64,000 bases of DNA from Paraflavitalea pollutisoli (GTDB taxonomy: Bacteria > Bacteroidota > Bacteroidia > Chitinophagales > Chitinophagaceae), in contig NZ_JARKMX010000003.1 in assembly GCF_029360705.1 (NCBI RefSeq), positions 186,001-250,000 on the forward strand, in the 5' to 3' direction. How positions within the stretch are numbered: the first letter of the stretch is position 1; each line of letters begins with the position of its first letter. Of this stretch, positions 3,525 through 22,903 are shown piece after piece. The notes below the pieces were generated by a model that saw only the letters and a program-made list of their open reading frames with translations, did not search any database and had not been told where the DNA came from. The translations under genes and the position numbers were made by a program.

Positions 3525-3851
3525 ATGAAAATGTGTGGAGTGAATTGCTTTTTAGGCAAGGTGGCACTGCTATGCGCAGTCTTTTCTTTAGTTGTTATTT
3601 GTGTTTTCGCCCAGGATGGGAAGGCCGGTATTGAGGAGGCTAATACAAAGGTCCGGGGGTACTTCGCAGTCGGTTGCAACCTGATGTACGCTGTGGGTGG
3701 CATACTAGGTTTGATCGGAGCTGTTCGCGTTTATCAAAAATGGGCAGGCGGACATCCGGACACCAGTAGTGTGGCGGCGGCCTGGTTTGGGGCTTGTGTG
3801 TTTCTGGTTGTGGTGGCTACAGTTATTAAATCATTCTTTGGGATTGCTTAA
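3525..3851 (+). CDS. traE: TraE, DUF4134 conjugation membrane protein
   Basis: A 108-residue protein with an N-terminal signal-like or membrane helix (about residues 10-29, ending VCVFAQ), then two further hydrophobic segments at about 50-68 (LMYAVGGILGLIGAVRVYQK) and 84-105. KWAGGHPDT between them is the usual turn. This is the DUF4134/TraE pattern of CTnDOT-type systems, which resembles small pilin/VirB2-VirB3-like inner-membrane components. It is the first gene of the tight transfer operon: traF starts 11 bp after its stop. An ATG two codons in (3531) is an alternative start. Confidence 0.88.
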   Translation: MKMCGVNCFLGKVALLCAVFSLVVICVFAQDGKAGIEEANTKVRGYFAVGCNLMYAVGGILGLIGAVRVYQKWAGGHPDTSSVAAAWFGACVFLVVVATVIKSFFGIA

Positions 3852-3861
3852 AACGACCGTG

Positions 3862-4176
3862 ATGGCAGCAAGTGTATATAAGATTAATAAAGGTGTTAAC
3901 CGTAGCATCGAATTCAAAGGATTGAAGGCGCAATACATCTGGTATCTGGGCGGCGGATTGCTACTTTGCCTAATACTTTATGTAGCTATGTACATCATCG
4001 GTGTTAATTCTTACGTATGCTTGTTTGTTGTCGGAGCTACCGCGGGGATGGTCTTCTACTATGTTTTCAAGCTCAGTAAAAAGTATGGTGAGCATGGGAT
4101 GATGAAAAACATGGCAAGGCGGAGCATTCCAAAGGTAATCCGGTGCAAGTCGAGACAGTGTTTTATCAAAATGTGA
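3862..4176 (+). CDS. traF: TraF, DUF4133 conjugation membrane protein
   Basis: From the ATG at 3862 this is a 104-residue protein. It opens with the family-like MAASVYKINKGVNRSIEFKG and LKAQYIWYLGGG, followed by two closely spaced transmembrane helices (about 32-52 and 57-76) and a basic C-terminus. DUF4133/TraF proteins are the VirB3-like partner that docks next to the TraG ATPase. The gene sits between traE and traG with only short gaps. Longer in-frame extensions upstream overlap traE and are not favoured; a GTG one codon earlier is possible. Confidence 0.85.
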   Translation: MAASVYKINKGVNRSIEFKGLKAQYIWYLGGGLLLCLILYVAMYIIGVNSYVCLFVVGATAGMVFYYVFKLSKKYGEHGMMKNMARRSIPKVIRCKSRQCFIKM

Positions 4177-4194
4177 AGTGCTAAAAATGTGAAG

Positions 4195-6627: not shown

Positions 6628-6656
6628 CGAATTTATCAAACGAAATAGGAGGTTGT

Positions 6657-7328
6657 ATGAAACAATGGATTTGTGCTATCGCATTTTGTGTGGTGTTGAC
6701 TGTTGCCCCAACACAGAAAAGCCATGCTTTTATATGGGATGTTGTAAAGCAGGCTTTGATTGCGGCCATTAAAGCTGCGGATTTGGCTGTACAGCGTTTG
6801 CAAAACAAGACTATCTGGTTGCAAAATGCGCAAAAAGCGTTGGAAAATACTCTATCCAAATTAAAGCTGGATGAGATATCCGGGTGGGTGGAGAAGCACA
6901 AAGAGCAGTACGCTAGCTATTTCGATGAACTGAGAAAGGTGAAGGAAGCAATTTCAGGGTACAAGAAAGTCAAGGTGATCATGCAGCAGCAATTGGCTAT
7001 AGTCGACGAATACAAAGCTGCGCTTCGGCTTTTTCGTCAAGACAAACACTTCACCACAAAGGAGATTGAATACATGGTACAAGTCTATTCGGGCATCCTG
7101 GATCAGAGCATAAAGAACATTGATCAGTTGTTTTTAGTGATCAAGTCTTTGAATACCGAAATGACGGATGGCAAACGGCTTGAGGTTATTAACAGGGTCG
7201 CCTCCGCTATCGATGGAAATCTTGCTGATCTGCGGATGTTTAATGCTGAAAACGTTCAGCTTTCCCTGCAACGTGCAAAAGATGCCACCGAGGTAAAACG
7301 TGTAAAGGAGATTTATGGAATTAAGTAG
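6657..7328 (+). CDS. TraI-like secreted transfer protein, copy A
   Basis: A 223-residue protein with a clear signal peptide (MKQWICAIAFCVVLTVAP...SHAF) and a long helical, coiled-coil-like body. The C-terminal third (KRLEVINRVASAIDGNLADL...VKEIYGIK) matches the ending pattern of TraI/DUF4141 proteins of Bacteroidota ICEs, which end in a similar RAK...ARVLELYG segment. The role is probably a periplasmic component of the transfer channel, comparable in position to VirB5. The next gene overlaps it by 14 bp and shares its C-terminal pattern, as does the third gene, so this is the first of three tandem paralogues. A strong Shine-Dalgarno lies 4 nt before the ATG. Confidence 0.7.
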   Translation: MKQWICAIAFCVVLTVAPTQKSHAFIWDVVKQALIAAIKAADLAVQRLQNKTIWLQNAQKALENTLSKLKLDEISGWVEKHKEQYASYFDELRKVKEAISGYKKVKVIMQQQLAIVDEYKAALRLFRQDKHFTTKEIEYMVQVYSGILDQSIKNIDQLFLVIKSLNTEMTDGKRLEVINRVASAIDGNLADLRMFNAENVQLSLQRAKDATEVKRVKEIYGIK

Positions 7329-7953
7329 CACATATTTCATGAAGTGTTTGGTCGTTCTAGTTTTTTTCGTTGGAAGATTCAGTATTGGCCAGGGGCAGAG
7401 TAGACAAATCAAAATGTACCTGGAACATATAGCTGCCGGTAAGGTTTATATTGAATACCTGCAAAAAGGGTATTCCGTGGCGCGGCGGGGACTGGGATTT
7501 ATCAGCGAAGTGAAAAATGGACACCTGAAACTTGATCGATTGTTTTTTGATGGGTTAGTGACAATTAATCCGCGAATTCGGAATTATCCTCACGTAATAG
7601 ACATCATGGTATTGGCAACGGGGATTATTGAAACCTGCAATCGTAATAAACGGGCTTTGGCAAGTGAGGGTTTGCTGTCGGCGGGGATGGTGACCTATTC
7701 GAATAGAATTACTGCGCTGCAGATCGCAGGTTGTCTGGCATTATTATCGGACCTGGCTGATTTACTCGCAGCTAATGTGCTGAAACTATCCGACGATGAG
7801 CGCATTCGTAGGATTGACGAGATCCATCGGGAAATGGAGGAGAGGCATAGTTTCATTACGAATTGGTCGACCGATACCGGGAAACTGCTTTTGCAAATGA
7901 AGAAGGAAAGCATGGAGTACGGTAGAATGAAAGGTGTGTATGATTTAAAATGA
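7315..7953 (+). CDS. TraI-like/TerB-annotated transfer protein, copy B
   Basis: A 212-residue protein with an N-terminal signal peptide (to about residue 25, FSIGQGQ). Its first mature segment, HIAAGKVYIEYLQKGYSVAR, resembles proteins that databases usually label TerB-like in Sphingobacteriales/Chitinophagales ICEs. The C-terminus (LSDDERIRRIDEIHREMEE, then LLLQMKKESMEYGRMKGVY) is shared with copies A and C. I infer a periplasmic structural role in conjugation and see nothing that supports tellurite resistance. It starts inside the end of copy A (AGGAG upstream), which suggests translational coupling. Confidence 0.65.
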   Translation: MELSSTYFMKCLVVLVFFVGRFSIGQGQSRQIKMYLEHIAAGKVYIEYLQKGYSVARRGLGFISEVKNGHLKLDRLFFDGLVTINPRIRNYPHVIDIMVLATGIIETCNRNKRALASEGLLSAGMVTYSNRITALQIAGCLALLSDLADLLAANVLKLSDDERIRRIDEIHREMEERHSFITNWSTDTGKLLLQMKKESMEYGRMKGVYDLK

Positions 7954-7957
7954 GTGT

Positions 7958-8590
7958 ATGGTAAAGTTCATCGTGGTTATTTCATTGACGACGAGTTTGC
8001 TTTTAAATTTTCGCGCTACTGCCCAAGTGCAGGAACTGCAACAATTGGCGCTGAATATTGAGAAGTTGGCTCAGTTCAGGCAAATGCTGTCGGATATGAA
8101 GAAGGGATATGAAATCCTTACCAATGGTTACAACGTTGTGCGAGGTCTTAGTCAGGGGAATTTTCAGTTGCATAAGGTTTTTTTAGACGGACTCATGGCG
8201 GTTAGCCCAGCAGTGAGAAAGTATCGTCGGGTAGCAGATATTATTGACTACCAGGTGCGGCTTGTCAAGGAATATAAGAGTGCGTTTAGTGAGTTTCGAG
8301 GTTCGACCCTCTTTCGTCCCGATGAGGTCAGGTATTTGGGTAATGTCTATACCCGGCTCTTTAATTCGTCATTGGAGAATCTTGAGGATTTATTGACGGT
8401 GATAACAGCTAACCGGCTTAGGATGTCGGATGAGGAGCGATTGGTGGAGATTGACAAGATTTTCCTGGAGATGGAAGATAAATTGGTTTTTCTACGTGAT
8501 TTTAATAATTCGACAAGCCTGTTGTTGCTGCAACGGAAAAAGGAGCAGATCGAGGCAAATCGAATGAAGCAGATTGAAGGGGTTAAATAG
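7958..8590 (+). CDS. TraI-like/TerB-annotated transfer protein, copy C
   Basis: A 210-residue protein with a signal peptide (LTTSLLLNFRATAQ) and a helical body. It is closest to copy B over the segment MKKGYEILTNGYNVVRGLSQ and over LDGLMAVSPAVRKYRRVADI, which matches FDGLVTINPRIRNYPHVIDI of copy B. The C-terminal motif MSDEERLVEIDKIFLEMED followed by LLLQRKKEQIEANRMKQIEG is the best-preserved shared part. It starts 4 bp after copy B stops. A periplasmic transfer-channel role is inferred from position. Confidence 0.65.
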   Translation: MVKFIVVISLTTSLLLNFRATAQVQELQQLALNIEKLAQFRQMLSDMKKGYEILTNGYNVVRGLSQGNFQLHKVFLDGLMAVSPAVRKYRRVADIIDYQVRLVKEYKSAFSEFRGSTLFRPDEVRYLGNVYTRLFNSSLENLEDLLTVITANRLRMSDEERLVEIDKIFLEMEDKLVFLRDFNNSTSLLLLQRKKEQIEANRMKQIEGVK

Positions 8591-8640
8591 TGACGGTGTT
8601 TGTCAACATAGTTTATTGTAGAGAGTGAAAAAAGTGAAGT

Positions 8641-9726
8641 ATGAAAAAAAGTGTTGTGTTTTTTCTAATAGGGTTGGTGCTGCCTGTGGTTGGTTTGGCA
8701 CAGAATAACAATACTATATCAGGTACGTTGGATAGTTTGCATTCTGTGTTGGATAAGCTGTATGATGAGCTGATGCCGCTTTGTGCTAAACTAAAGAATG
8801 TAAGTGCTGGCATTGCTGCGTTTGCCACGCTGTTTTACATTGCCTATCGCGTTTGGGGACACCTGGCCCGGACTGAGCCCATAGACTTTTACCCTTTGTT
8901 TAGGCCATTCGTTTTGGGATTTTGTATTATGAATTTTCCATTGGTATTGGGAGTTATTAATGGTGTGATGAAGCCCACAGTTACAGGCACCAAGGAACTT
9001 GTGACGAACTCGAATTACACTATCGAAACGCTTCTCAAGCAAAAAGATGCCGCTATTAAGACTACAGACGTATATCAAATGTATGTTGGTCCAACAGGTG
9101 ATGGGGATAAATCCAAATGGTATAAGTACACCTACGATAAGGAGATGCCGGAAAGTGAAGGGTGGCTTTCCGGAATTCACACAAGTTTGTCGTTTTCGTT
9201 TGCCAAGGCTGGGTATGCTTTCCGAAATGCTGTAAAGGAGGTGATTGCGGAAGTCTTGCAGATGCTTTTTGCAGCTGTTTCCCTATGTATTAACACGCTA
9301 CGCACCTTTAACTTGGTCATTTTGTCGATTTTGGGGCCATTCGTTTTTGGACTAAGTACGTTTGATGGCTTTCAGCATACCGTTAAGCACTGGCTGGCCC
9401 GTTACATCAATGTTTTCATGTGGCTGCCGATCAGTAATATTTTCGGGATGATAATCGCCACGATTCAGATTAACATGCTAAAGCTCGATCTGTCTCAGAT
9501 TTCTCAAAATGGTGATACCTTTTTCAGTCGTACGGATATGGGCTATTTGGTATTTCTGATTATAGGAATTTATGGATATACAACAGTCCCTGCCATTGCC
9601 AATCAAATTATGCACGTAACAGGTGCTGATGCCCTTACTGGCAAGTTTGCTAATGATGCCAAGGGGGCGGCAACCGCTGTCGTGTCTGGGCCGGCGAGCT
9701 TCATTCAGAGTAAGATTACGGGCTAG
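8641..9726 (+). CDS. traJ: TraJ, polytopic VirB6-like conjugation protein
   Basis: A 361-residue inner-membrane protein with a signal peptide (to about residue 20, VVGLAQ), a first membrane segment near KNVSAGIAAFATLFYIAYRVW, and further helices around residues 95-115, 200-240 and 300-325. The segment HLARTEPIDFYPLFRPFVLG and the FGLSTFDGFQHTVKHWLARY loop are typical of TraJ of CTnDOT-like elements, the VirB6 counterpart that forms the translocation pore. The length is normal. It is preceded by 50 bp of spacer after copy C. Confidence 0.9.
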   Translation: MKKSVVFFLIGLVLPVVGLAQNNNTISGTLDSLHSVLDKLYDELMPLCAKLKNVSAGIAAFATLFYIAYRVWGHLARTEPIDFYPLFRPFVLGFCIMNFPLVLGVINGVMKPTVTGTKELVTNSNYTIETLLKQKDAAIKTTDVYQMYVGPTGDGDKSKWYKYTYDKEMPESEGWLSGIHTSLSFSFAKAGYAFRNAVKEVIAEVLQMLFAAVSLCINTLRTFNLVILSILGPFVFGLSTFDGFQHTVKHWLARYINVFMWLPISNIFGMIIATIQINMLKLDLSQISQNGDTFFSRTDMGYLVFLIIGIYGYTTVPAIANQIMHVTGADALTGKFANDAKGAATAVVSGPASFIQSKITG

Positions 9727-9788
9727 GTAATCTGATTACAGAACTCGGTGTGGGTTAAATATTTGTGGAGTAAGAAAATGTGGTAGTT

Positions 9789-10406
9789 ATGTTTCCAAAG
9801 GTAAAAAGTATTGAAAGGTCATTCCAATACATACGTTTATTTACGTTGATCGTGATTGTTGCCTCTTTGTCGCTTTGTGGTTTAAGTCTATACAAGTCAT
9901 TTCAGTTAACCGAAACGACCCAAAATAGGATTTATGTTCTTGTGAATGGAAAAGTATTGGAGGCGATTGCCTCCGATAGAAAGGAAAATGTGCCTGTTGA
10001 AGCAAGGGATCATGTTAAGATGTTCCACTATTATTTTTTTACGTTGGATCCAGATGAGCAAATTATCAAAAATAATATTACTAATTCGCTTTATCTGGCT
10101 GACGAAAGTGCAAAGCGCCAATATCTTAATTTGAAGGAGCAGGGTTACTATTCTAATATCATTTCGGCCAATATCAGTCAAGAAGTCCACGTCGAGAGCA
10201 TTACAATAGATGTGAAGCAGTATCCATACCGTTTTAGGTACATGGGAAGTCAGCGAATCATCCGCTCGTCTTCTATTGTCACCAGGTCACTTGTGACAGA
10301 AGGGTATTTACGAAACATGGGTCGTAGTGATAATAATCCTCACGGCTTTCAAATTGAGCGGTGGACTGTATTGGAAAACAAAGATCTAAGTATTTCAAAT
10401 CGATAA
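9789..10406 (+). CDS. traK: TraK, VirB8-like conjugation protein
   Basis: From the ATG at 9789 this is a 205-residue bitopic protein: short cytoplasmic N-terminus (MFPKVKSIERSFQYIR), one transmembrane helix at about 18-40, and a periplasmic domain. The stretch RIYVLVNGKVLEAIASDRKE followed by VEARDHVKMFHYYFFTLDPD is the TraK hallmark. TraK is the assembly-core protein analogous to VirB8. The longer GTG start at 9780 adds only three residues. The gene is followed after 3 bp by the TraL-position gene. Confidence 0.9.
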   Translation: MFPKVKSIERSFQYIRLFTLIVIVASLSLCGLSLYKSFQLTETTQNRIYVLVNGKVLEAIASDRKENVPVEARDHVKMFHYYFFTLDPDEQIIKNNITNSLYLADESAKRQYLNLKEQGYYSNIISANISQEVHVESITIDVKQYPYRFRYMGSQRIIRSSSIVTRSLVTEGYLRNMGRSDNNPHGFQIERWTVLENKDLSISNR

Positions 10407-10409
10407 ATC

Positions 10410-10901
10410 ATGTTCAGAATATTTAAAAAGCCTGGGCGTCCTTCCTCAGCAGATAAGTTCCTGTTAAAGGGAGGTTTGTGGATGGAAGCAAAACTTCGCT
10501 TGTTGGCCGGGAAGTTAAATAAGCGTGCAGCAGGCTGGTCCCGCAGGTCTATAAAGATCGGCCTGATGGTGTTTTGCATGTTTTACGGAGGCGTTGGTTT
10601 CTACTTGCTATTTCTGCAAAGTGCCACTACGATTGCTGTAGACCAGATTTTAGTACCCGAGCACATTATTGCGCCAAACGACCGGATTATCCAGGATCGC
10701 TTGAAGCTATTGAGTGTTGAAGAATATAAAAGGCTTATGGGCTTCAGGGACTATCTGGATAGTTTGAGGAGAAGCCCGGTCGGAAGGCAGCAGTACGACC
10801 GGATCATTGAAGAGCATCCGGGCATCTTGGATAGTATTGAGTATATAATTGGTATTCACGAGGGACACGATAAAAATGTGGGGTATGGAAAAGAAAAATG
10901 A
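10410..10901 (+). CDS. TraL-position single-pass membrane protein
   Basis: A 163-residue protein with a basic N-terminal ~50 residues, one transmembrane helix (about 52-70, IGLMVFCMFYGGVGFYLLFL) and a helical periplasmic tail (EEYKRLMGFRDYLDSLRRSP). TraL/DUF3989 proteins occupy this slot between TraK and TraM and have the same topology; the sequence itself is not a clear match, so I leave the symbol out. Its end overlaps the start of traM by 17 bp, which suggests coupled translation. Confidence 0.6.
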   Translation: MFRIFKKPGRPSSADKFLLKGGLWMEAKLRLLAGKLNKRAAGWSRRSIKIGLMVFCMFYGGVGFYLLFLQSATTIAVDQILVPEHIIAPNDRIIQDRLKLLSVEEYKRLMGFRDYLDSLRRSPVGRQQYDRIIEEHPGILDSIEYIIGIHEGHDKNVGYGKEK

Positions 10902-12171
10902 AATCAGACATTCTCAGAAATTTTTAAAACAGCGGAAATTTTTATTGCTACTGCCATTACTGGTATTGCCTTTTTTGACTTTCGTGGGTTATTCAGCCGG
11001 GATCATAGGGAAGGATGCACCAGCTAAGCAGGTAGAGCAACGTGGTTTTAATGCAAAGTTGCCTGACGCGGCACCATCTGCCGACAGCAATTGGAATAAG
11101 TTGGCATTTTACGAAAAGGCCGACAAGGACTCGGCGCTCCGTAGAGCTGGTGAACGGGCAGATCCATATCGGATTAACGACAATCAGCAAGCTGTACGGC
11201 AGGACACTGGCAGTAGCAGTACGTCGAGGTATAAGTATGAACCGTATCCTAACACGAGCAGTAGCCCTTTAGAAAGCGCTGCGGTAGACGCCAACGAACA
11301 ACGGGTGTACAAGAAGCTGGCGGAACTAGATAATGAATTGAACCGTCGGCAAAGGCCCGCGACGCTTGTTGACCAGGCTGCGCCCACAACGAGCAATGCT
11401 GATGTGGATAGGTTAGAGCGAATGATGGCATCAGTAAGTGCAGATAATGGAGGAAATGAGTTTTCACAGATTAATGGCGTATTAGAGCGAATCCTGGATG
11501 TGCAACATCCGGAGAGGGTCAGGGAAAAGCTGAAAGAAAGGTCTTTTGAACACAAAACGAGCGTGTTTCCAGTAACTGCTTATCCTTCGGAAAATGGGGT
11601 CTCCCTGTTGTCTAATGTGGCTCCATCAGATACGGTTGGCTTACTACGGACGGAAAATGCCCGCTTTTATGGTCTCGAAGATGGCCGGAAACAGATCTCC
11701 GACCAGCGTTCAATTAGGGCTATAGTCCCTGAATTTCAAACTTTAGTTAGTGGTACTACCATCAAGCTCATGTTAACCGATGATGTATATATAAGGGGTG
11801 AATTGATCCCGCGCCACACATTTGTCTACGGTGTAGCAAGCATCGATGGCGATCGTATGCGTATTGCCATTGCTTCTCTTAAATATGAAGGCAACATTTA
11901 TCCAGTGTCATTGTCTGCCTATGATTTGGACGGTTTAGAAGGTATCTATGTACCTGGTTCTATAAATCGAGAGGTTAGCAAGCAAACAGCCGATCAGGCT
12001 ATTCAGAATCTGGGAATAGCTTCTCTTGATCCGTCCCTGGGTGCTCAGGCCGCCAGTGCTGGGTTGCAAGCAGCTAAAACGCTCGTAGGTCGAAAAGCAC
12101 GTTTGGTGAGGGTTAATGTGCCGGGTAACTATGAAGTATTGTTGATGGACGCAAATGGCCGCGAAAGGTAA
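10885..12171 (+). CDS. traM: TraM, VirB10-like conjugation protein
   Basis: From the ATG at 10885 this is a 428-residue protein. It has a short cytoplasmic N-terminus, a transmembrane helix (LLLLPLLVLPFLTFVGYSAG), a long low-complexity periplasmic linker, and the conserved C-terminal TraM domain (about 280-428). The latter includes IRAIVPEFQTLVSGTTIKLM, DVYIRGELIPRHTFVYG and GLEGIYVPGSINREVSKQTA. This is the VirB10/TrbI-type scaffold that spans the envelope. An upstream in-frame start (10849) would lie inside the previous gene and place extra residues before the membrane helix. Confidence 0.9.
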   Translation: MEKKNEIRHSQKFLKQRKFLLLLPLLVLPFLTFVGYSAGIIGKDAPAKQVEQRGFNAKLPDAAPSADSNWNKLAFYEKADKDSALRRAGERADPYRINDNQQAVRQDTGSSSTSRYKYEPYPNTSSSPLESAAVDANEQRVYKKLAELDNELNRRQRPATLVDQAAPTTSNADVDRLERMMASVSADNGGNEFSQINGVLERILDVQHPERVREKLKERSFEHKTSVFPVTAYPSENGVSLLSNVAPSDTVGLLRTENARFYGLEDGRKQISDQRSIRAIVPEFQTLVSGTTIKLMLTDDVYIRGELIPRHTFVYGVASIDGDRMRIAIASLKYEGNIYPVSLSAYDLDGLEGIYVPGSINREVSKQTADQAIQNLGIASLDPSLGAQAASAGLQAAKTLVGRKARLVRVNVPGNYEVLLMDANGRER

Positions 12172-12211
12172 GATACAGGCAGCTTATTTTATTACTTTAA
12201 AATTGCATGTG

Positions 12212-13039
12212 ATGAAAAGATATGTGTTGATGGTGGCAATCATCTCGTTTGTGTACTCAGGTTTAATGGCGCAGCAGTTATTGTCCGGTGGCTTTAAAGT
12301 CGAAATAATCAATCCAATTGGATTGGAGATTTCAAGTGATTTAACTACGAACTTGATATTTCCTTTTGCTATAAAGAGCGTGGACAGAGGTTCAAGTGAT
12401 ATCCTAGCTCAGAAAGCGCGGGGTGTCGAGAATGTTTTGCAGATTAAGGCGGCAAAGGAGTTTAAACAAAGCAATCTATCGGTGATTACTGCCGATGGCC
12501 GGTTTTATTCATTCTTGGTGAATTTCTCAGCAAGCCCACGTTTTCTTACTTTATCATTTTGTAGTGACTCCCTCGCTTCTCCCATTCGGCTTTCGGGAGT
12601 TGATCTAGCCGAAGATGTTGTCGCAGAAACTACCGAGGCGGTGTTGAAGGCTGGATTTTTCCTTCATCGAAGTAAAAAGAGTCAGTTTATGAAATTACGG
12701 CTTGGAGGGATTCATTTCGGGCAACGTCATCTTTGGTTTTCGTTTGAATTAAAGAATAGGTCGCTTGTTGATTTCGACATTGAATATGTAAAGTTCTTCG
12801 TCAAAGAGAAAAAGCAAGCTCGTCGTACCGCCATACAAGTAAAAGAGTTGACTCCTACCCCTTTTTCTCCATTTAAGACAACTAGTAGCGGAAGTCCCAC
12901 CAGGTTTGCCATAGTCATACCGGCGTTCACTTTATCAGGAAATCAAGAGTTGCGAGTGCTTGTGAAGGAAAAGAATGGGGGGCGTGATTTGGAACTAGTA
13001 CTCAGAAATGGTACTCTTTTGCAGGCGCGAAGCCTGTAG
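12212..13039 (+). CDS. traN: TraN, DUF4138 VirB9-like conjugation protein
   Basis: A 275-residue protein with a signal peptide (MKRYVLMVAIISFVYSGLMAQ). The mature start contains LEISSDLTTNLIFPFAIKSV, followed by DRGSSDILAQKARGVENVLQ and LSVITADGRFYSFLVNF, the DUF4138/TraN signature. The C-terminal half includes LRLGGIHFGQRHLWFSFELK and FDIEYVKFFVKEKKQARRTA. TraN pairs with TraM as the VirB9-like outer part of the core channel. The start at 12212 is chosen because it gives a normal signal peptide; the open frame extends back into traM. TraO, TraP and TraQ of CTnDOT are not found after it. Confidence 0.9.
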   Translation: MKRYVLMVAIISFVYSGLMAQQLLSGGFKVEIINPIGLEISSDLTTNLIFPFAIKSVDRGSSDILAQKARGVENVLQIKAAKEFKQSNLSVITADGRFYSFLVNFSASPRFLTLSFCSDSLASPIRLSGVDLAEDVVAETTEAVLKAGFFLHRSKKSQFMKLRLGGIHFGQRHLWFSFELKNRSLVDFDIEYVKFFVKEKKQARRTAIQVKELTPTPFSPFKTTSSGSPTRFAIVIPAFTLSGNQELRVLVKEKNGGRDLELVLRNGTLLQARSL

Positions 13040-14829: not shown

Positions 14830-15189
14830 ATGTTACTTATGAATATTGTTAATGGTGAGGAAAAGCCGGTTGTTAAATCGCCAATTTTAATTCCCTATGA
14901 AACGGACGAATTCTGGGCAACAATAAGGCATGTAATTAAAGAAGAGTTTGAAAAGGTCGTATCCGCTGCCACGTCTGCAAAACCTCCAACAAACCAGCAT
15001 TTGCATGAGACGCCCGGTTTAACACAGAAACCTCTTTATAAAATGGCTGAAGTCTGCAAGTTGTTCCAGGTTACTAAACCAACAGTTTATGACTGGTGCA
15101 AGCTTGGAAAGCTCAAGCCACTGAAGATAAGGTCAAGGGTCTTCTTTTTGTGGCAGGATATTGAAGCGCTTTTGTCTTCTAGCAAATAG
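14830..15189 (+). CDS. Excisionase-like helix-turn-helix protein
   Basis: A 119-residue protein whose C-terminal half is a MerR/excisionase-type DNA-binding domain: LYKMAEVCKLFQVTKPTVYD (HTH), WCKLGKLKPLKIRSRVFFLW (wing) and a final helix IEALL. The N-terminal ~65 residues are a helical extension. In Bacteroidota ICEs, proteins of this type act as recombination directionality factors or transcription regulators. It is the last backbone gene before the defence cargo, so it may control excision (inference). Confidence 0.7.
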   Translation: MLLMNIVNGEEKPVVKSPILIPYETDEFWATIRHVIKEEFEKVVSAATSAKPPTNQHLHETPGLTQKPLYKMAEVCKLFQVTKPTVYDWCKLGKLKPLKIRSRVFFLWQDIEALLSSSK

Positions 15190-15371: not shown

Positions 15372-16046
15372 GTGGCTGCAGCAACAACGAAAAATATTAG
15401 TGAATTTCAAGAAAAGCTTCTTGCTTGGTTTGCTACAAATGGTCGGCATTTTCCTTGGCGAGAAAGAAGGTTAACTCCTTATCAAACTATTATTGCAGAA
15501 GTATTATTGCAACGGACTAAAGCAGAAACAGTATCAAAATTTTACCCAAAATTTATACAACATTTTCCTAACTGGTTAGCCCTATCCTTAGCAAACGTTT
15601 CTGATATTGAACACTATTTGAAACCGGTAGGACTTTACGCTCAGCGATCAAAGCGATTAAAAAGTCTTGCCCTGGAAATGATTAAACGAAATGAGGTCCT
15701 GCCTACTGATAGAAGAGAATTAGAAAGTATGCCTTTCATGGGACAGTATATGGCCAATGCTGTAGAACTTCTCCTTTATGATAAGCCGTTTCCTTTGCTT
15801 GATGTAAATATGTCTCGAGTGTTAGAAAGGTACATTGGAGAAAGAACAATGGCAGATATTCGCTATGACCCTTATTTGCAGAAGTTGGCTTTTAAAGTCG
15901 TAAAGCACAACCATTCTAAGGAATTAAATTGGGCAATTCTCGATTTTGCAGCAATTACTTGCAAAGCAAGAAACCCAATCTGCAAAACTTGTTTTCTTGC
16001 AAGAAAATGTGCTTTCATTAAAAGTGTTAGACGCCGTTTGTTATAA
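15372..16046 (+). CDS. Mig-like T:G mismatch DNA glycosylase (HhH-GPD, Fe-S)
   Basis: A 224-residue HhH-GPD glycosylase of the endonuclease III/MutY/Mig superfamily. Seen: RHFPWRERRLTPYQTIIAEV and LLQRTKAETV in the N-terminal helical domain; a helix-hairpin-helix at about 119-128 (SMPFMGQYMA); catalytic Asp144 in PLLDVNMSRV; and four cysteines C197-x6-C204-x2-C207-x5-C213, the exact [4Fe-4S] spacing of the family. The residue aligned with the endonuclease III catalytic Lys and the MutY Ser is Tyr126, as in the archaeal thymine-DNA glycosylase Mig, which is encoded beside a 5-methylcytosine methyltransferase. A methyltransferase follows here too. The inferred job is repair of T:G mismatches left by deamination of methylated cytosine. 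The start codon is GTG; no in-frame ATG precedes it. Confidence 0.85.
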   Translation: MAAATTKNISEFQEKLLAWFATNGRHFPWRERRLTPYQTIIAEVLLQRTKAETVSKFYPKFIQHFPNWLALSLANVSDIEHYLKPVGLYAQRSKRLKSLALEMIKRNEVLPTDRRELESMPFMGQYMANAVELLLYDKPFPLLDVNMSRVLERYIGERTMADIRYDPYLQKLAFKVVKHNHSKELNWAILDFAAITCKARNPICKTCFLARKCAFIKSVRRRLL

Positions 16047-16131
16047 AAATTGGTTTACATATTGGCTAAATAAGTTAGCATTCAAGAGTTTGTGTTTTAT
16101 CAAAGTGTTGATAATCAGTATTGTGTAAAAG

Positions 16132-17427
16132 TTGTTTTGTTTCCTAGAATTATTAAATTTGTGGGATATACTAACCTGTTGCAACTTGGAACAAAATTAC
16201 TTGACTCATATTGACCTATTTGCCGGATGTGGAGGGCTTTCTTTAGGTTTACATAATGCTGGTTGGAGAGGATTATTTGCTATCGAAAAAAGCCCCTATG
16301 CCTTCGACACCCTTGAACATAACTTGATCAAAAAGCACAATCATTTTAACTGGCCTTCCTGGTTACCGAAAAAAAATCTTGATATTAATCAGGTTTTAAT
16401 TGATTTCAAGGACCAACTGATCGGTTTGCAAAACTCTATAGACCTTGTTACTGGAGGTCCCCCATGTCAAGGTTTTTCCACAGCCGGGTTACGCAAAGAG
16501 AATGACGTCCGAAATGAACTTATTCGATCATACCTTCGATTTATAATGTATGTACGGCCTAAAATGATATTTTTTGAAAATGTTAAGGGCTTTACGCAGG
16601 AGTTTAAAACGAATAAGACTAAGGGATATGCATACTCCCAATATGTTCTGAGAGTTCTTAAGTTCTTGAAATACGATGTTGAAGGCCAGATGGTAGATTT
16701 TTCTGAATTTGGAGTACCACAAAAAAGAACCCGGTTTATTTTGGTCGGTATAAGAAGAGATATTGCTCAACAGTATAATATAGTTGCAAAGGCATTTTTT
16801 AAGCAGCTTAGGTTAAATAAAAAAGGATTTTTAAATAATAAAGACCTGCCACAGAGCCCTAATTTAGCAAATGCAATTTCTGATCTAATAAAAGGCAATG
16901 ATTTAGATAAATTAGTTCCAACTCCTGACCGTGGTAAACAATTCCGCAGTGGGCTCTATGCTACTCCTCGTTCCAAATATCAGGAATACTTTAGAAGCGG
17001 CTGTTGCTTGGAAATTCCAGACAGTCATAGTTTCCCTAATCACAAGCCTGAAATAGTAAAAAGATTCAAATATTTATTAAACACGCAGGTTGCTAATAAA
17101 AATATCAGTAAAACTGCAAGGAAGAAATACAACATAAAGAAACATACTATCATCCCTTTATCTGCAAAACATAAAGCTCCTACAATTACAACCCTACCTG
17201 ACGATTACATACACTATTCTGAACCAAGAATATTGACTGTTAGAGAATATGCACGAATACAGAGTTTTCCGGATTGGTTTGAAATTCGAGGAAAGTATAC
17301 CACTGGAAGTAAGTTAAGGGTTCAGGAAGTGCCAAGATATACTCAGATCGGTAATGCTATACCTCCGTTATTTAGCGAACAAAGTGGCCTTGTTCTAAAG
17401 CAATTAATACAGCATATATCAACTTGA
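16132..17427 (+). CDS. DNA (cytosine-5) methyltransferase
   Basis: A Dcm-type C5-cytosine methyltransferase with all key motifs in order: motif I HIDLFAGCGGLSLG (AdoMet binding), motif IV GGPPCQGFSTAG with the catalytic Cys near residue 110, motif VI FFENVKGF near 145, motif VIII VPQKRTRFILVGIRR, a target-recognition region at about 220-340, and motifs IX-X RVQEVPRYTQIGNAIPPLF near the C-terminus. The target sequence cannot be read from the protein. There is no in-frame ATG before motif I; candidate starts are TTG at 16132 or TTG at 16201, so the N-terminus is uncertain by up to 23 residues. It is preceded by the Mig-like glycosylase and followed by GHKL ATPase and nuclease-helicase genes, so it is the modification half of a restriction-type system. 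Confidence 0.92.
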   Translation: MFCFLELLNLWDILTCCNLEQNYLTHIDLFAGCGGLSLGLHNAGWRGLFAIEKSPYAFDTLEHNLIKKHNHFNWPSWLPKKNLDINQVLIDFKDQLIGLQNSIDLVTGGPPCQGFSTAGLRKENDVRNELIRSYLRFIMYVRPKMIFFENVKGFTQEFKTNKTKGYAYSQYVLRVLKFLKYDVEGQMVDFSEFGVPQKRTRFILVGIRRDIAQQYNIVAKAFFKQLRLNKKGFLNNKDLPQSPNLANAISDLIKGNDLDKLVPTPDRGKQFRSGLYATPRSKYQEYFRSGCCLEIPDSHSFPNHKPEIVKRFKYLLNTQVANKNISKTARKKYNIKKHTIIPLSAKHKAPTITTLPDDYIHYSEPRILTVREYARIQSFPDWFEIRGKYTTGSKLRVQEVPRYTQIGNAIPPLFSEQSGLVLKQLIQHIST

Positions 17428-17551
17428 GTTGGATACAATTGAATATCTAAATTATCCTTTTGGGAACCAATCTCATGAATGTTCAAAAAGAGAAGGAAAT
17501 ACTTTTTGTTCATGTATACAATAACCTTTGCTTTTTATAGCTTGCCTTTAT

Positions 17552-19837
17552 ATGGAACAATTTGACTTAACACCAAGCCCCGCCTTGCTTGATCTTCTGG
17601 GGAAAATACCTTTCAAAGGATGGCAATGTGTTGCTGAATTGGTTGACAACTCAATTGATGCCGTGATAAATCATAGCAGCAAACTGAAAGATTATCAGAA
17701 AGTAATTTCTGTTTATATCCCAACGAAAGGAAGGATAATCGAAAATCAGCCTTTGATTGTTGAAGATTGGGGAATTGGAATGACTGAAGAGCAGCTTGAG
17801 AATGCTGTTAGGGCCGGTTTTTCAAGTAAAAATACAAACTCAAATCTTGGGTTATTTGGAATGGGTTTTAATGTCGCAACATCCCGGCTTGCTAATACAG
17901 TTCAAGTTTGGACTGCAACGGAAGAGATGGAAAGGGAGATTGGTGTGTGTATTGATTTAAGAGAAATGAAAAAAACAGGATCTTTTCATCGCCCTAAAAT
18001 AGAAAGGGAAAAGAGGGCTGACAAAATATCGGGCACACGAATTGAAATTTATGATTATAAACCTGAAGCGACTAATCTACTTCAATCAAAACAAATCAGT
18101 AGAGAGTTGAATAAGGCGTATGCTGAAAAGATTTTTAATGAGTATGGAATAAAAGTTCTAATTAATAAAGAAGAAGTAAAGCCATTTAAATTTTGTGTTT
18201 GGGACAAGAAGCGTTCCGTCAAGCATAAATACGATGATGTTCCTTCTTATATAGAGATTGATCAACATTTATGTGATGAAATGTTTTGCGAAAACTGTTT
18301 TTCTTGGTTGGGAGAGACCGTTGACACTACCTTAAATATTGAGTGCCCACATTGCCATACCATTGGAAAAGTTGTAAAGAAAGAAATTTACATTTTGGGT
18401 TGGGTTGGCATTCAACGTTATTCCGATTTGGAGCATTATGGCATTGATATTTCACGAAATGGGCGAATCCTTAGCAAACTTGACAAATCTTTTTTTTACT
18501 GGGAAGATGAGAGAGGGAAAAATGACCCGCAAGGGAGGTTTAGTCCTGAATACCCGAGAGACACTACCTATGCTGGAGGACGAATTGTCGGACAGCTCGA
18601 TGCAAACTTCGTTATTCCCAAATATACAAAAGATGATTTTGAGAGGGAGGATAGGGTTTGGAAAAAGGTAGTTGATTTCATTCGTGGTGAAATGCCATTA
18701 CAGCCTGAACTTGCAAGCTCTTTTGGGTTCAAACAACCAAATCGTTCTCCTATCGGACGGTTATTTAATGCCTACAGAAAAATGAACGTAGCAGGCTCCA
18801 AAACTCTTGTTTTTTCAAAAGAAGACGGGAGTTGCGATCATGTTACGCCGAGAAATTGGGCAAATAAATTTTACGAAGGTGATGTAGATTATCAAGATGA
18901 CACCAAATGGTGGGAGGCTGTTACAAAAGCAGATTTAAAAGATACCCAATCAACTTTTAATCCGCTTAACCCCACAGGGAAAGCGACCAGTACTAAATCA
19001 GGAACAAGTAGGCCCGCACCTGCTCCAGAAAAATATCAAGGTAAAAAGCTGTTCAAGAAGGCCCTTCGATATGATATTGAAAAGCTGATCGGTGAAAAAC
19101 CAATAGACTTAACACTTATTGATTATTATCCTGAAAACGATTTGAGCATTCCAATCATTTTTGAATCGCAGGGGGCTATGTGGAAATTCAATGTTTATTT
19201 GAATAATAGTCACCCGATGTTTAGGGATTTTGCTGATGGCTATGAAGATTTAATATTCATGGAAGTTGCTTCTAAATATGCCCAAGCCAAGAATAATTTT
19301 GATGAATGGACTGTTACCCGAATTTATTATGAATTGAAATCGAGGTATGCTCTTGAAACAATGTTAAATGTGCCAAATTTAGTTGCTAAAGCGAGTAAGT
19401 TGTTGAGGGATATTCAAAATAAATTAGTAAGCGGAGAAGGGATTCTTTTGCCAAGGAAACCAAATCTACATTCCGCTGATGAAGCAGCTATCAAGAAAAA
19501 GTATCTTGACTTGGAAAGAAAGAGTATTTCTGATTTTAATGCCTTCGTTATGAATACGAAGTATATGAAGTACCTTGATCTAAATTACATTTTTAGGTTC
19601 GTCGAGGAGTTTCCTGATGTGATTTACGATGGGAAAATTTTCAATCTTCCTTATGTAGAGTTAGATGATGAAAGCAAACAACACCAATCAAAAAAATACA
19701 CAGGATATTTTAGCGATGTCCGATGGTTTATGAATGACTTGTCTAAGGAAGGTGATGAAGCTGTGAAAAAGCAAAAGCAACAAATTATTCGTAATCGGTA
19801 CAGTATAGAAATATTAGATGGAAGCATTAATAGATGA
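17552..19837 (+). CDS. MORC-like GHKL ATPase of a restriction system
   Basis: A 761-residue protein with an N-terminal GHKL ATPase: N-box GWQCVAELVDNSIDAV at about residues 23-38, DWGIGM near 70, and GLFGMGFNVATSR near 100. This is the MORC/MutL-type arrangement, not a histidine kinase, since no phospho-acceptor domain is present. At about 248-273 there is a zinc-ribbon pair of Cys-x2-Cys motifs (CENC and CPHC), an insertion in the second half of the ATPase/transducer region. The C-terminal ~300 residues are unassigned, with charged helical segments. Prokaryotic MORC-like ATPases have been described in predicted restriction-modification operons with m5C methyltransferases and SF2 helicase-nucleases, which is the context here. 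It overlaps the next gene by 20 bp. The ATG at 17552 is chosen because MEQFDLTPSPALLDLL begins directly before the ATPase fold. Confidence 0.8.
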   Translation: MEQFDLTPSPALLDLLGKIPFKGWQCVAELVDNSIDAVINHSSKLKDYQKVISVYIPTKGRIIENQPLIVEDWGIGMTEEQLENAVRAGFSSKNTNSNLGLFGMGFNVATSRLANTVQVWTATEEMEREIGVCIDLREMKKTGSFHRPKIEREKRADKISGTRIEIYDYKPEATNLLQSKQISRELNKAYAEKIFNEYGIKVLINKEEVKPFKFCVWDKKRSVKHKYDDVPSYIEIDQHLCDEMFCENCFSWLGETVDTTLNIECPHCHTIGKVVKKEIYILGWVGIQRYSDLEHYGIDISRNGRILSKLDKSFFYWEDERGKNDPQGRFSPEYPRDTTYAGGRIVGQLDANFVIPKYTKDDFEREDRVWKKVVDFIRGEMPLQPELASSFGFKQPNRSPIGRLFNAYRKMNVAGSKTLVFSKEDGSCDHVTPRNWANKFYEGDVDYQDDTKWWEAVTKADLKDTQSTFNPLNPTGKATSTKSGTSRPAPAPEKYQGKKLFKKALRYDIEKLIGEKPIDLTLIDYYPENDLSIPIIFESQGAMWKFNVYLNNSHPMFRDFADGYEDLIFMEVASKYAQAKNNFDEWTVTRIYYELKSRYALETMLNVPNLVAKASKLLRDIQNKLVSGEGILLPRKPNLHSADEAAIKKKYLDLERKSISDFNAFVMNTKYMKYLDLNYIFRFVEEFPDVIYDGKIFNLPYVELDDESKQHQSKKYTGYFSDVRWFMNDLSKEGDEAVKKQKQQIIRNRYSIEILDGSINR

Positions 19838-21509
19838 TTCAAAAGGATTCCTTTCAACTGAACGGCTATCCAAGGGCACATGGCAAGCATTTGAACGAGG
19901 GATTGCCAGATTGCTTATGCACTGCGGGTGGGAAATAAATGAGTTGGTAGGCGGCTCTGGGGACCACGGTGCTGACATCATTGCAGCATTTCGTGATGAT
20001 GATGGAAATCTTCTTGAATTTATTTACCAAGCAAAATTTTCAGAAACTAACAAACCTCTTTCTGTTGATATTATTGGAGATATAAAAAGAGCAATGGAGT
20101 ATTACGGAATTGAAAGGGGGGTTGCTGCATCAAACCGATCAATTTCGGAGTCTCAAAATTTGCGGCTGAAGACTTTACAGGGTACTGGGTACAATATTCA
20201 AACTTTTCTTTCAAAAAGTATTTACGACACATACACACAACTTCCACCTTGGGCAACAGAAAATCGAGCATTAAAAGTATACCAAGCAGAAGCCCTTTCG
20301 AAGCTTCAAGGAGCATATTCGAGAGGTGACAAACATGGATTGATTTGTTTAGCCACTGGCTTAGGCAAAACTTTTGTTGCCGCCACTTTTTTGCGTTGGC
20401 TTTACCAAAATAATCCAAACCTTAATGTCTTGATTTTGGCAAACACAAAGTCGTTGATTGAACAATTTGATAGAGCTATCTGGTCTAATCTTCCGAAATG
20501 GATTGCAACGCATTTGCTTTATGATTCTGAGAAACCAACCTTTTTGGAAGGTGTCACACTCTCAACCTTTCAAAGCTTTCAGGATTTTTACAAAAAGATA
20601 GGAGGATTTTATTATGATGTTGTAATCGTAGATGAGGCTCATCATGCGCCTGCTGAGACATATTTGGCAGTAATAAAAAGGCTCGAGCCGAAATTCTTAC
20701 TTGGACTAACTGCAACTCCATTTAGGAAAGATGAAAGAGACGTGACCGAAGTTTTTGGACAACCTTTGGTTTACTATTCAGTTTACAAAGCTTTACAGAA
20801 AGGATATTTGGCGAAAGTGGAATACCACTTGCACAATGATAACATAGATGAGGATTGGATAACCCAGAACAGCCGGAAGGGGCACACGATTAAACAGTTA
20901 AATAAGAAAATATTTTTGCCTGAACGAGATGATACTGTTTGTGAAGAAGTATACAGAATTTGGAATGACAGAAAGCTTGAAAGGGGAATAATTTTCTGTA
21001 ATAGCAGCGAACATGCAGAGAGGATTGAAAAGCTATTGAAAGTAAATTTTCAATTGCCTGTTTGGTCTTTAACGACAAGAGTTAAGGACTCGAGGGAACG
21101 GGCTAAAAGGTTGCGCGAGTTCCGGACTGGTAAATGTTGTATTTTAACTTGCTATGACATGTTAAATGAAGGTGTTGATGTTCCTGATGTTGATTATATC
21201 GTTTTCTTAAGAGTCACACACAGTAGGGTTTACTTCTTACAACAGCTTGGCAGAGGGCTTCGCTACAAAGAAGGCAAAAAATTGGTAGTTCAGGACTTCG
21301 TTGCAGACATAAGAAGGATAAAAAGGCTGAAATCTTTTCAGCAAGAATTTGAAGAAGCGAGGCGCTATGAAATTGAAGAATTGTATTTTAACGATGCCTT
21401 CAAACTTACGTTTACCTCTGAGCAAACTACAAACTTTCTTGACCTTGTTACGAAAGATATTTCTGAAGAAATGGACGAAGATGAGGAAGTTTATTTAGAT
21501 TCAATGTAA
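19818..21509 (+). CDS. Mrr-type nuclease fused to SF2 helicase
   Basis: A 563-residue restriction effector. The N-terminal ~120 residues form an Mrr-like endonuclease: FERGIARLLMHCGWEINELV, then GSGDHGADII with Asp53 and FIYQAKF with Gln71-x-Lys73, the D...QxK active site. The rest is a superfamily II helicase: Walker A CLATGLGKTFVA near residue 175, DEAH near 275, GLTATP near 298, and motif VI QQLGRGLRYKEG near 475. The C-terminus is acidic. The two fused halves suggest translocation-dependent cleavage of unmodified DNA. It starts inside the end of the GHKL gene (20-bp overlap), a sign of coupled translation and joint action. Its own specificity domain is not apparent, so target recognition may come from the partner proteins. 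Confidence 0.85.
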   Translation: MEALIDDSKGFLSTERLSKGTWQAFERGIARLLMHCGWEINELVGGSGDHGADIIAAFRDDDGNLLEFIYQAKFSETNKPLSVDIIGDIKRAMEYYGIERGVAASNRSISESQNLRLKTLQGTGYNIQTFLSKSIYDTYTQLPPWATENRALKVYQAEALSKLQGAYSRGDKHGLICLATGLGKTFVAATFLRWLYQNNPNLNVLILANTKSLIEQFDRAIWSNLPKWIATHLLYDSEKPTFLEGVTLSTFQSFQDFYKKIGGFYYDVVIVDEAHHAPAETYLAVIKRLEPKFLLGLTATPFRKDERDVTEVFGQPLVYYSVYKALQKGYLAKVEYHLHNDNIDEDWITQNSRKGHTIKQLNKKIFLPERDDTVCEEVYRIWNDRKLERGIIFCNSSEHAERIEKLLKVNFQLPVWSLTTRVKDSRERAKRLREFRTGKCCILTCYDMLNEGVDVPDVDYIVFLRVTHSRVYFLQQLGRGLRYKEGKKLVVQDFVADIRRIKRLKSFQQEFEEARRYEIEELYFNDAFKLTFTSEQTTNFLDLVTKDISEEMDEDEEVYLDSM

Positions 21510-21753
21510 GTTTTTCGAAAAGCACTATGTTCTCATTTAAGGCATTTCCTATATAAGATAATTTTTCTGTTTTCGACAATTCTTAGCCTGGTAGGTTACT
21601 CAATACTGAGACGCTAAAGATCTGAAACTTAGTTTTCGCTTAAGTTAAACGATAGATTAAATTGAAGTATCATTTGATTTTGGTTGTTCATTAATCCACT
21701 CTTATAAGATTGAGATATGAGTAATCTTGATTTGCCACTCTAAAGTACAATTC

Positions 21754-22545
21754 ATGTTGAAAGCCTCATTCCTATATATTTTCACAGTTCTTTATTGTTT
21801 TTTTATTCCAAAAATGATTTATGGACAGGTACTATCTGGTGATCTGGGAAAGTATAGTTATTTAATTTATTCTAATAACGGACAGTTTAGATATTCTGCT
21901 ACAGGATTTTTCATACGGAAGAATGACAGATTATTTTTGATTGGTGCCGGACATACTTTTAACGGTAAAAACACTATAACTGGCGAGGACGACAAAGATT
22001 ATCCAGATTCTATTTCAATTATTGCTTGTAGAGAATGTGGCGCCGATTCTGGAGTAATACATATAGACATCTCGAAGATTAAGAAATTAGCTCAATCAAC
22101 AACATTCACGAAAGAACCAGAAGTGTATGTTTATGAAGTCGATAGCAAACTTCCTTTTTCGATTAAATCCGTTGATTTGTTTGTGAAAACTTTTGATGAT
22201 GTAGACAAGAATTCAATAGATACTGTAATTATGTATGGCTATCCAAATTTGGCAGGGACTACAATAAGAGAGATTAAACAAACTGTGCCAACGATATCAT
22301 TTGGAAACTTATTAGAGAAGTACTCAACGCTTAACTACTATGCCGAAATCAATACTTTTGATAAAATAAACTATTTAATGAAGCCAAATGAAAAAAGTCC
22401 AATGGGCGGCGGGTTTTCTGGCTCTCCTTGCTTTTTTAAAATTAGGAATGAATTTTATTTTGGTGGTATTTGTATTGGGGGGTCCATTAACAAACGACTC
22501 GTTATTAATGTAAGACCGGAAGAGGTCTTAAAGTTGATTCAGTAA
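21754..22545 (+). CDS. Secreted trypsin-like serine protease
   Basis: A 263-residue protein beginning with a hydrophobic signal sequence (MLKASFLYIFTVLYCFFIPK...YGQ). It has a chymotrypsin-fold pattern: FFIRKNDRLFLIGAGHTFNG supplies the catalytic His, and SPMGGGFSGSPCF the Ser with the GxSGxP arrangement. The Asp is not certain; VEVYEVD-like and FDDVDKNSID segments are candidates. Trypsin-like peptidases of this short form occur in bacterial defence islands, but this one appears to be exported, so it is not clearly part of the restriction module. It lies about 245 bp after it. The start at 21754 is preferred over the TTG at 21727 because it gives a compact signal peptide. Confidence 0.65.
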   Translation: MLKASFLYIFTVLYCFFIPKMIYGQVLSGDLGKYSYLIYSNNGQFRYSATGFFIRKNDRLFLIGAGHTFNGKNTITGEDDKDYPDSISIIACRECGADSGVIHIDISKIKKLAQSTTFTKEPEVYVYEVDSKLPFSIKSVDLFVKTFDDVDKNSIDTVIMYGYPNLAGTTIREIKQTVPTISFGNLLEKYSTLNYYAEINTFDKINYLMKPNEKSPMGGGFSGSPCFFKIRNEFYFGGICIGGSINKRLVINVRPEEVLKLIQ

Positions 22546-22846: not shown

Positions 22847-22864
22847 GAGTCCCGTCCGGTCCGC
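22847..22864 (+). other. attR-type junction: tRNA 3' remnant, probably tRNA-Asp
   Basis: GAGTCCCGTCCGGTCCGC equals the end of a tRNA: the last T-loop bases GAGT, the T-stem 3' strand CCCGT, and an acceptor strand CCGGTCC. The sequence to its left cannot complete a tRNA. The pairing partner would be an acceptor 5' strand GGACCGG, which I recall from Bacteroidota tRNA-Asp(GTC) genes. Integration of an ICE from the left, with the tRNA 3' end displaced to the right, would leave exactly this plus the native terminator that follows. The tRNA identity is inferred. Confidence 0.6.
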
Positions 22865-22895
22865 AAAAAGCCTCTCAGAAATGTGAGGCTTTTTT
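22865..22895 (+). terminator. Intrinsic terminator of the displaced tRNA
   Basis: AAAAAGCCTC at 22865-22874 pairs with GAGGCTTTTT at 22885-22894 around a 10-nt loop, and the T-run completes an intrinsic terminator. It lies immediately after the tRNA 3' remnant, so it is best read as that tRNA's chromosomal terminator. Confidence 0.8.
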
Positions 22896-22903
22896 GTTGG
22901 TGC

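Follow-up and report, generated by a model that had tools for sequence, protein, structure and literature searches.

A predicted mobile MORC-type restriction-modification system with a Mig-type DNA glycosylase in Paraflavitalea pollutisoli

The four-gene module and its MORC-helicase core

The DNA analysed here is a 64,000-nucleotide stretch of the 8.76-Mb genome of Paraflavitalea pollutisoli (part of contig C11; hereafter the window), which carries, close to the right-hand boundary of a conjugative element of ~67 kb that sits at a tRNA-Asp gene, a module composed of a predicted DNA glycosylase, a C5-cytosine methyltransferase, a GHKL ATPase and a fusion of an Mrr-type nuclease with an SF2 helicase (Table 1). 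According to the open reading frame (ORF) list of the window, all four genes lie on the forward strand between 15372 and 21509, and all have Pfam matches, in agreement with a preliminary description of the same letters that had proposed a four-gene, same-strand defence module. No separate specificity subunit was found at the locus, as that description had also reported.

There is no overlap among the first three genes, which are separated by 85 bp (glycosylase to methylase) and 124 bp (methylase to the ATG at 17552); the ATPase and fusion genes overlap by 20 bp. DNA identity to a related locus, L002 (75% over 3969 columns), runs from exactly this ATG to 21496, within the last codons of the fusion gene, with a second short match in the methylases (108 columns, 69%). 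As the identity begins exactly there, the ATPase probably starts at this ATG rather than at the annotated TTG; as it spans 17552-21496, the ATPase and the fusion would seem to behave as an exchanged unit. A small possible ORF in the methylase-MORC interval of L002 (3758-4058) was seen by eye only.

Table 1. Features of the module and of the right end of the element (window coordinates)
Feature	Position	Strand	Basis or remark
Mig-type HhH-GPD [4Fe-4S] DNA glycosylase (224 aa), a predicted thymine glycosylase for T:G mismatches	15372..16046	+	Pfam HhH-GPD, E 2e-14
C5-cytosine DNA methyltransferase, start codon uncertain	16132..17427	+	PF00145, 3e-54
MORC-type GHKL ATPase	17552..19837 (annotated start TTG 17528)	+	HATPase_c_3, 4e-13
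Zinc ribbon within ATPase (CENC...CPHC)	18287..18355	+	CxxC-15-CxxC, Cys 254/257/273/276 (769-aa frame)
Mrr-type nuclease + SF2 (ResIII/Rad25-like) helicase fusion, 563 aa	19818..21509	+	Mrr_cat, ResIII, Helicase_C
attR, right-end copy of the tRNA-Asp 3' end, GAGTCCCGTCCGGTCCGC	22847..22864	+	exact 18-bp repeat of C11:141627-141644

The C5 motifs claimed for the methylase were confirmed by eye (DLFAGCGG, GGPPCQGFS, ENV, PQKRTR, QIGNAIPP), and this gene is the only PF00145 match in the genome, whereas Vsr (PF03852) has no match in the whole genome, element included. The methylase is 54% identical to that of a Methanoregula MORC locus (L003). Type III restriction-modification, which is defined by an adenine-type Mod subunit with Res, is ruled out by the C5 type of the window methylase. 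The neighbours of related methylases were tried as a guide to the target site and led nowhere, the three plasmid relatives examined lying in other systems. In the fusion, Pfam places Mrr_cat at residues 19-111 (8e-9), ResIII at 152-303 (2e-28) and Helicase_C at 376-483 (2e-15); its Mrr site reads GDxGxD ... QAK. Both the D...QxK nuclease-SF2 helicase fusion of the preliminary description and its overlap with the ATPase gene stand.

The earlier assignment of the ATPase to the MORC-like GHKL proteins is upheld by its HATPase_c_3 match, by the best PDB matches of its profile (MORC3 and MORC4, 4e-9 to 8e-8, MORC3 at 4e-9) and by a Foldseek search with its structure model (mean pLDDT 75, pTM 0.57), in which MORC2 and MORC3 occupy ranks 1-4; the GHKL motif residues E37, D40, N41, D80, G84, G108, G111, G113 and G169 are invariant in 16 sequences. 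Hsp90 entries are mixed in from rank 5, and the top ten alignments extend over 427-489 columns to MORC2/3/4 but with TM-scores of 0.27-0.29 (query) and an rmsd of 7-10. For the S5 domain, Morc6_S5 reaches 18.6 bits, under its cut-off of 26.2, and the motif GhXhhpXXRhl of Iyer, Abhiman and Aravind (2008) is present with one mismatch (GIDISRNGRIL), being exact in 4 of 26 MORC ORFs and found in 56 of 5200 shuffles. Owing to the low TM-scores, the Hsp90 matches and the mismatch in the strict motif, the protein is named only MORC-type, and is predicted to be either MORC proper or a close sister. The zinc ribbon of the preliminary description is present in the window, and its cysteines are invariant in the 4 sequences of alignment A1, but it is missing from some of the 13 in alignment A3 (for example, L014 and L018). 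For the C-terminal 262 residues (model pLDDT 81), Foldseek gave no confident PDB match (best E 0.26).

The core of ATPase and fusion is rare, yet its occurrences extend across bacteria, archaea, plasmids and virus contigs. Profile scans yielded 3 loci in genome contigs, 6 plasmid records and 16 virus contigs; profile A1 detected the ATPase in 2 of 395 genomes from the class and, for the phylum to which the genome with the Rhizobiales locus L004 belongs, in 2 of 398, rates that may be low as at most two candidates were scored per genome, and three of the four matches (all save G528) were known beforehand. Further scans of the virus contigs gave no new contigs with the helicase, the same two contigs with A8 and none with A9, and led nowhere with the glycosylase alone. 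Among the 27 loci examined with local profiles (the window, L002-L004, L010-L029, L041, L042 and L104), the helicase fusion follows MORC in 24, the exceptions being L017 (contig ends) and L027 and L029 (remote); in L025, an IS3 transposase gene lies between the two. A C5-methylase accompanies 23 of these 24 pairs (counting as present that of L021, at 56 bits, and that of L023, in three pieces) and was not detected in L022.

Several of these loci carry further genes. An Eco29kI-like GIY-YIG nuclease gene lies near L024 (5071-5844; Pfam RE_Eco29kI 30.7 bits against a cut-off of 30.8), L010, L011, L013, L015 (cut), L016 and L025 (2445-3320), giving the impression that a classical restriction enzyme has been added to the MORC system there. 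Directly 3' of the helicase, many relatives encode an uncharacterised protein of ~175 aa (for example, L004:12028-12549 and L024:9942-10469), whose L004 copy matches no Pfam family above cut-off and which went undetected in L002, L003, L019, L020 and L022. Near the MORC locus of the Deinococcus plasmid pDrdI, E2/UBC, Mov34 and SAVED genes form a CBASS-like group (L028:15235-18972).

Identity of the glycosylase and its alternation with Vsr

The best PDB match of the glycosylase is 1kea (‘Possible G-T mismatches repair enzyme’, 9.5e-31), which is Mig.MthI of the Methanothermobacter plasmid pFV1, with MutY behind at 1.7e-25. PADLOC PDLC03398 (‘type II nicking endonuclease’) matches residues 1-217 at 6e-34, and mutY, the best NCBIfam name, scores 148 bits, about half its cut-off of 286.5. 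At 31% overall identity, the window protein shares with Mig.MthI the HhH-GPD fold, the four cluster cysteines and five of the pocket residues (F27, R48, A51, Y126 and D144, against F27, R47, A50, Y126 and D144 in Mig numbers), and has Trp in place of Leu at 187; this Trp is common to L019, L020 and two Thermus relatives.

Tyr126, which the preliminary description had taken to set Mig apart from both endonuclease III (Nth) and MutY, excludes Nth (Lys in 6/6) but fails against MutY: it is found in all 11 Mig-like sequences (window included) and in all 14 MutYs compared, and was therefore rejected as a Mig marker. In the literature, Bacillus stearothermophilus MutY likewise has Tyr at this position and Escherichia coli MutY has Ser (PMC2714593). 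Separation from MutY, judged against MutYs that all come from the host and its kin, lies instead in Phe27 (11/11 Mig-like, window included, versus 0/13 MutY), Arg/Lys48 (10/11 versus 0/13), Ala51 (10/11, the MutY residue being Val in 11/13, Ala in one and Met in one) and position 187 (Leu/Trp in 11/11 versus Gln in 14/14). MutY identity is disfavoured on these grounds and on QRT (not QQT), D-V-N (not D-G-N), W187 (not the Gln182 equivalent), a length of 224 aa and the score below cut-off. The changes A50V and L187Q together switched Mig.MthI from T/G to A/G, yet the reverse changes gave MutY no T/G activity, and the strict need for Phe27 and Arg47 has been doubted (PMC2714593). The 1kea match and the residues Phe27, Arg48, Ala51 and Trp187 thus favour the Mig-type assignment of the preliminary description, and the pocket argues for T:G activity but, given the failure of the reverse changes and the doubt over Phe27/Arg47, does not prove it. 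A reading of the protein as a restriction glycosylase, after the R.PabI family, was set aside; HhH is unmentioned in the available portion of PMC10273834.

In the glycosylase tree (MutY rows trimmed to 260 aa, only the last 225 residues of L020 kept; L030, with an in-frame stop, and L038, both also left out of A4, omitted along with the ORF of L023 and the partial L062), the 13 MutYs form a group at 100/98 and Nth at 100/100. Both the host and 4/4 genus relatives possess a MutY and an Nth of their own, and no third copy was found in these relatives. A C5-methylase lies within ~2.1 kb in 9 of 10 Mig-type plasmid loci, hand-picked from the best rows of 74 matching records and not a random sample; none of 14 MutY controls has a methylase nearby, a weak contrast since the MutY flanks cover only ~1.5 kb. 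Mig near a C5-methylase is classical in pFV1, where an NgoPII-type nuclease is also close by, whereas the window partner is a MORC system. On the haloarchaeal plasmids L035 (7010-11262) and L037 (6989-11236), a Mig-type glycosylase, a C5-methylase and a GHKL ATPase follow in this order; the GHKL protein resembles paraMORC and shows, by eye, a PD-(D/E)xK-like motif, no helicase is annotated beside it, and these loci may represent compact restriction-modification systems equipped for T:G repair. An Alisedimentitalea plasmid carries a Mig-type frame with an in-frame stop beside an MvaI/BcnI nuclease and a C5-methylase (L030:9001-9654).

Across the 23 loci that combine methylase, MORC and helicase, Vsr is present in 14 (L003, L004, L010-L013, L015, L016, L018, L023, L024, L026, L041, L042), a Mig-type glycosylase in 3 (the window, L019 and L020), neither in 6 (L002, L014, L021, L025, L028, L104) and both in none. 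The co-occurrence expected by the preliminary description consequently holds for the core and the methylase, but extends to the glycosylase in only three loci, two of which (L019 and L020) are close kin. Some of the absences are possibly artefacts (L021 is cut, L014 ends soon after, L025 is broken by IS elements). L023 was considered as a locus with both repair genes and rejected, its glycosylase-like ORF (62 bits) having no Tyr126 and three of the four cluster cysteines. Many loci are closely related to one another: clustering at 80% helicase identity reduces the 24 helicase loci to 16 groups, and without L021 and L022, 14 clusters comprise 9 with Vsr, 2 with Mig and 3 with neither. On the helicase tree (L011, L012, L015 and L021 left out), the window joins L002 and then L003 (100/100 each), apart from L019/L020, and at least two gains or losses of the Mig label must be placed on strongly supported branches.

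The Methanoregula locus L003 and the Rhizobiales locus L004 share C5-methylase, MORC and Mrr-helicase with the window, but have Vsr where the window has Mig. L003, which is archaeal, adds histidine-kinase-like and response-regulator-like (weak match) genes between methylase and Vsr (4269-7405), recalling the two-component-like elements described in PMC8011034. In the virus contigs L019 and L020, as in the window, C5-methylase, MORC, Mrr-helicase and Mig-type glycosylase lie on one strand; there, however, the glycosylase is last rather than first, the MORC is 26% identical to that of the window and, in L019, an uncharacterised 251-aa gene precedes the glycosylase.

A MORC restriction-modification system of this kind was predicted by Iyer, Abhiman and Aravind in 2008 (type 1; PMC2292703) and consists of MORC, a restriction endonuclease (RE)-fold nuclease fused to a Rad25-like SF2 helicase, a cytosine methylase and Vsr. 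The MORC ATPase, the nuclease-helicase fusion, the cytosine methylase and a nearby gene in the repair position are common to both, and the fusion is therefore not the addition that the preliminary description had supposed. A T:G repair gene is likewise already known there as Vsr; what appears to be new is only the predicted T:G glycosylase Mig in its place, since the other parts were all foreseen in 2008. The term ‘glycosylase’ occurs 0 times in the text of that paper, and neither Mig in a MORC system nor an experiment on the MORC plus Mrr-helicase type was found in a literature search of open PMC papers.

Proposed mechanism and rival explanations

The reading that we favour, with a probability of roughly two in three, is that of a mobile MORC-type restriction-modification system, in which a Mig-type glycosylase mends the damage caused by the system's own 5-methylcytosine (m5C). 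Judging from its family, the methyltransferase would mark cytosines throughout host and element DNA. The families and the constant pairing of the other two proteins suggest that the MORC ATPase would close as an ATP-driven clamp on unmarked incoming DNA and recruit or license the Mrr-helicase fusion, leading to translocation and cutting. Deamination of m5C to T would leave a T:G pair as the cost of the mark; the glycosylase, whose T:G role is predicted from its pocket residues and from its occupying the position of Vsr in sister systems, would excise the T, and base-excision repair would restore C. As neither a further C5-methylase nor a Vsr was found in the genome, the element would bring in both the cost of methylation and its remedy. 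Among GHKL ATPases linked to nucleases, VcSduA, a GHKL-nuclease protein that confers phage protection, is an experimental precedent (PMC12137116).

In eukaryotes, the MORC ATPases are proteins of chromatin (PMC2292703); their bacterial counterparts were still described as poorly understood in 2021 (PMC8011034). The compact four-gene version is a good test case for the way in which a MORC clamp could drive restriction. Furthermore, two unrelated enzymes (Vsr and Mig) in one role would speak for T:G repair having been selected in such systems, and their alternation can aid in recognising m5C systems whose target site is unidentified.

Several observations weigh against the restriction-modification reading with its own repair. 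The window methylase is no more than a distant relative of its counterparts in L002 and others, methylases vary from locus to locus, and the three nearest plasmid relatives examined, out of 18 records (41-44% identity), belong to different multi-gene loci in which no MORC-helicase pair is annotated alongside. Six of the 23 loci have neither Vsr nor Mig, including L002, whose MORC is 82% identical to that of the window; G158, with a match at the same place and score as that of L002, has no Vsr in its genome, and its best glycosylase match is a 353-aa, MutY-sized frame. The repair gene consequently appears dispensable. Zero overlap of Vsr and Mig has a chance probability of 0.047 over the 23 loci and of 0.11 over the 14 clusters, for which reason the exclusion is a pattern, not proof. 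Repair labels are unclustered on the helicase tree (136 of 200 shuffles as low), as would be expected if the repair gene were often exchanged or lost. On the glycosylase tree, the Mig-like set is weak as a group (52/45) and the window stands on a long branch with L019/L020 (84/85), besides having Trp rather than Leu at 187; and no counterpart of the ~175-aa gene found directly after the helicase in many relatives was detected in the window.

Some of these observations would equally suit a methylase-independent defence unit of MORC and Mrr-helicase, alongside which the glycosylase and methylase landed as a separate modification unit. The homology to L002 that begins exactly at the MORC ATG, the variation of the methylases among loci, the MORC-helicase pair of L022 with its methylase undetected and the placement of the nearest plasmid methylases examined in other systems all point this way. 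Nevertheless, a C5-methylase in 23 of 24 loci is too constant for chance, though any C5-methylase may serve, and two independent units appear unlikely. That the glycosylase serves general repair in the manner of MutY, or is passing cargo, without a link to m5C, is distinctly improbable: MutY has the same HhH-GPD superfamily, Tyr126 and best NCBIfam name to offer, and the window and Mig.MthI are not firmly joined on the tree, but the score is about half the mutY cut-off, 224 aa is too short for the C-terminal MutY domain, Gln48 and Gln187 of MutY are missing, the 13 MutYs group apart and the host already has a MutY.

Part by part, the module also resembles a mismatch-repair pathway keyed to methylation, in which Mig or Vsr would find the mismatch, MORC would act as MutL, and the Mrr-helicase as MutH plus UvrD. 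The 2008 prediction itself likens MORCs to MutL and Vsr and allows the recruitment of some to repair (PMC2292703). A dedicated repair pathway instead of restriction is nonetheless very improbable, in view of the 6 of 23 loci that have no mismatch enzyme and the Eco29kI-like nuclease genes, which at several loci point to restriction. A self-contained methyl-directed mismatch machine, joining foreign-DNA restriction and repair of the m5C mark in one apparatus with Mig/Vsr giving the mismatch signal, is a speculation with similarly little in its favour. Lastly, glycosylase-based phage defence exists (PMC11078745, PMC13160076), and the protein could in principle be an effector that excises bases from invading DNA, as Brig1 and Brig3 do; both of these, however, are described as members of the uracil-glycosylase superfamily and the window protein belongs to HhH-GPD, the Mig pocket is kept and the gene takes the place of Vsr in other loci, making an effector role extremely improbable.

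The conjugative element and its insertion site

The ICE-borne location proposed earlier (ICE, integrative and conjugative element) is borne out by the transfer genes and by the element ends. Upstream of the module, Pfam identifies TraG, TraJ, TraM and DUF4138/DUF4134 genes; the protein at 9780-10406 has no Pfam match. A 455-aa tyrosine integrase adjoins the intact tRNA-Asp (C11:141570-141644), and the two 18-bp repeats are 67,220 bp apart. The GC content is 37.0% in the module, 44.2% in 3525-13039 and 50.9% from 23 kb on. Several adhesin-like genes (by eye) separate the integrase from the window, so the region may hold nested elements. The ATPase was not found in 4/4 genus relatives.

The 52 bp at 22847-22898, terminator included, are 94% identical to a place in the genus relative G796 that is a further tRNA 3'-end copy, ~1.6 kb from the intact tRNA-Asp of G796, which fits the native side of the insertion site. 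In the same relative (L091, 2143-3825), several tRNA-Asp 3'-end copies, three of them 393 bp apart, lie beside one intact tRNA-Asp, and this gene consequently looks like an insertion hot spot in the genus. Within the window, an excisionase-like HTH_17 protein precedes the module (14830-15189; NCBIfam MAD1 27 bits, far under the cut-off of 80), and a 272-aa peptidase candidate lies between the helicase and attR (21727-22545; Pfam DUF31 19 bits, below cut-off, and PADLOC LmuA 18 bits).

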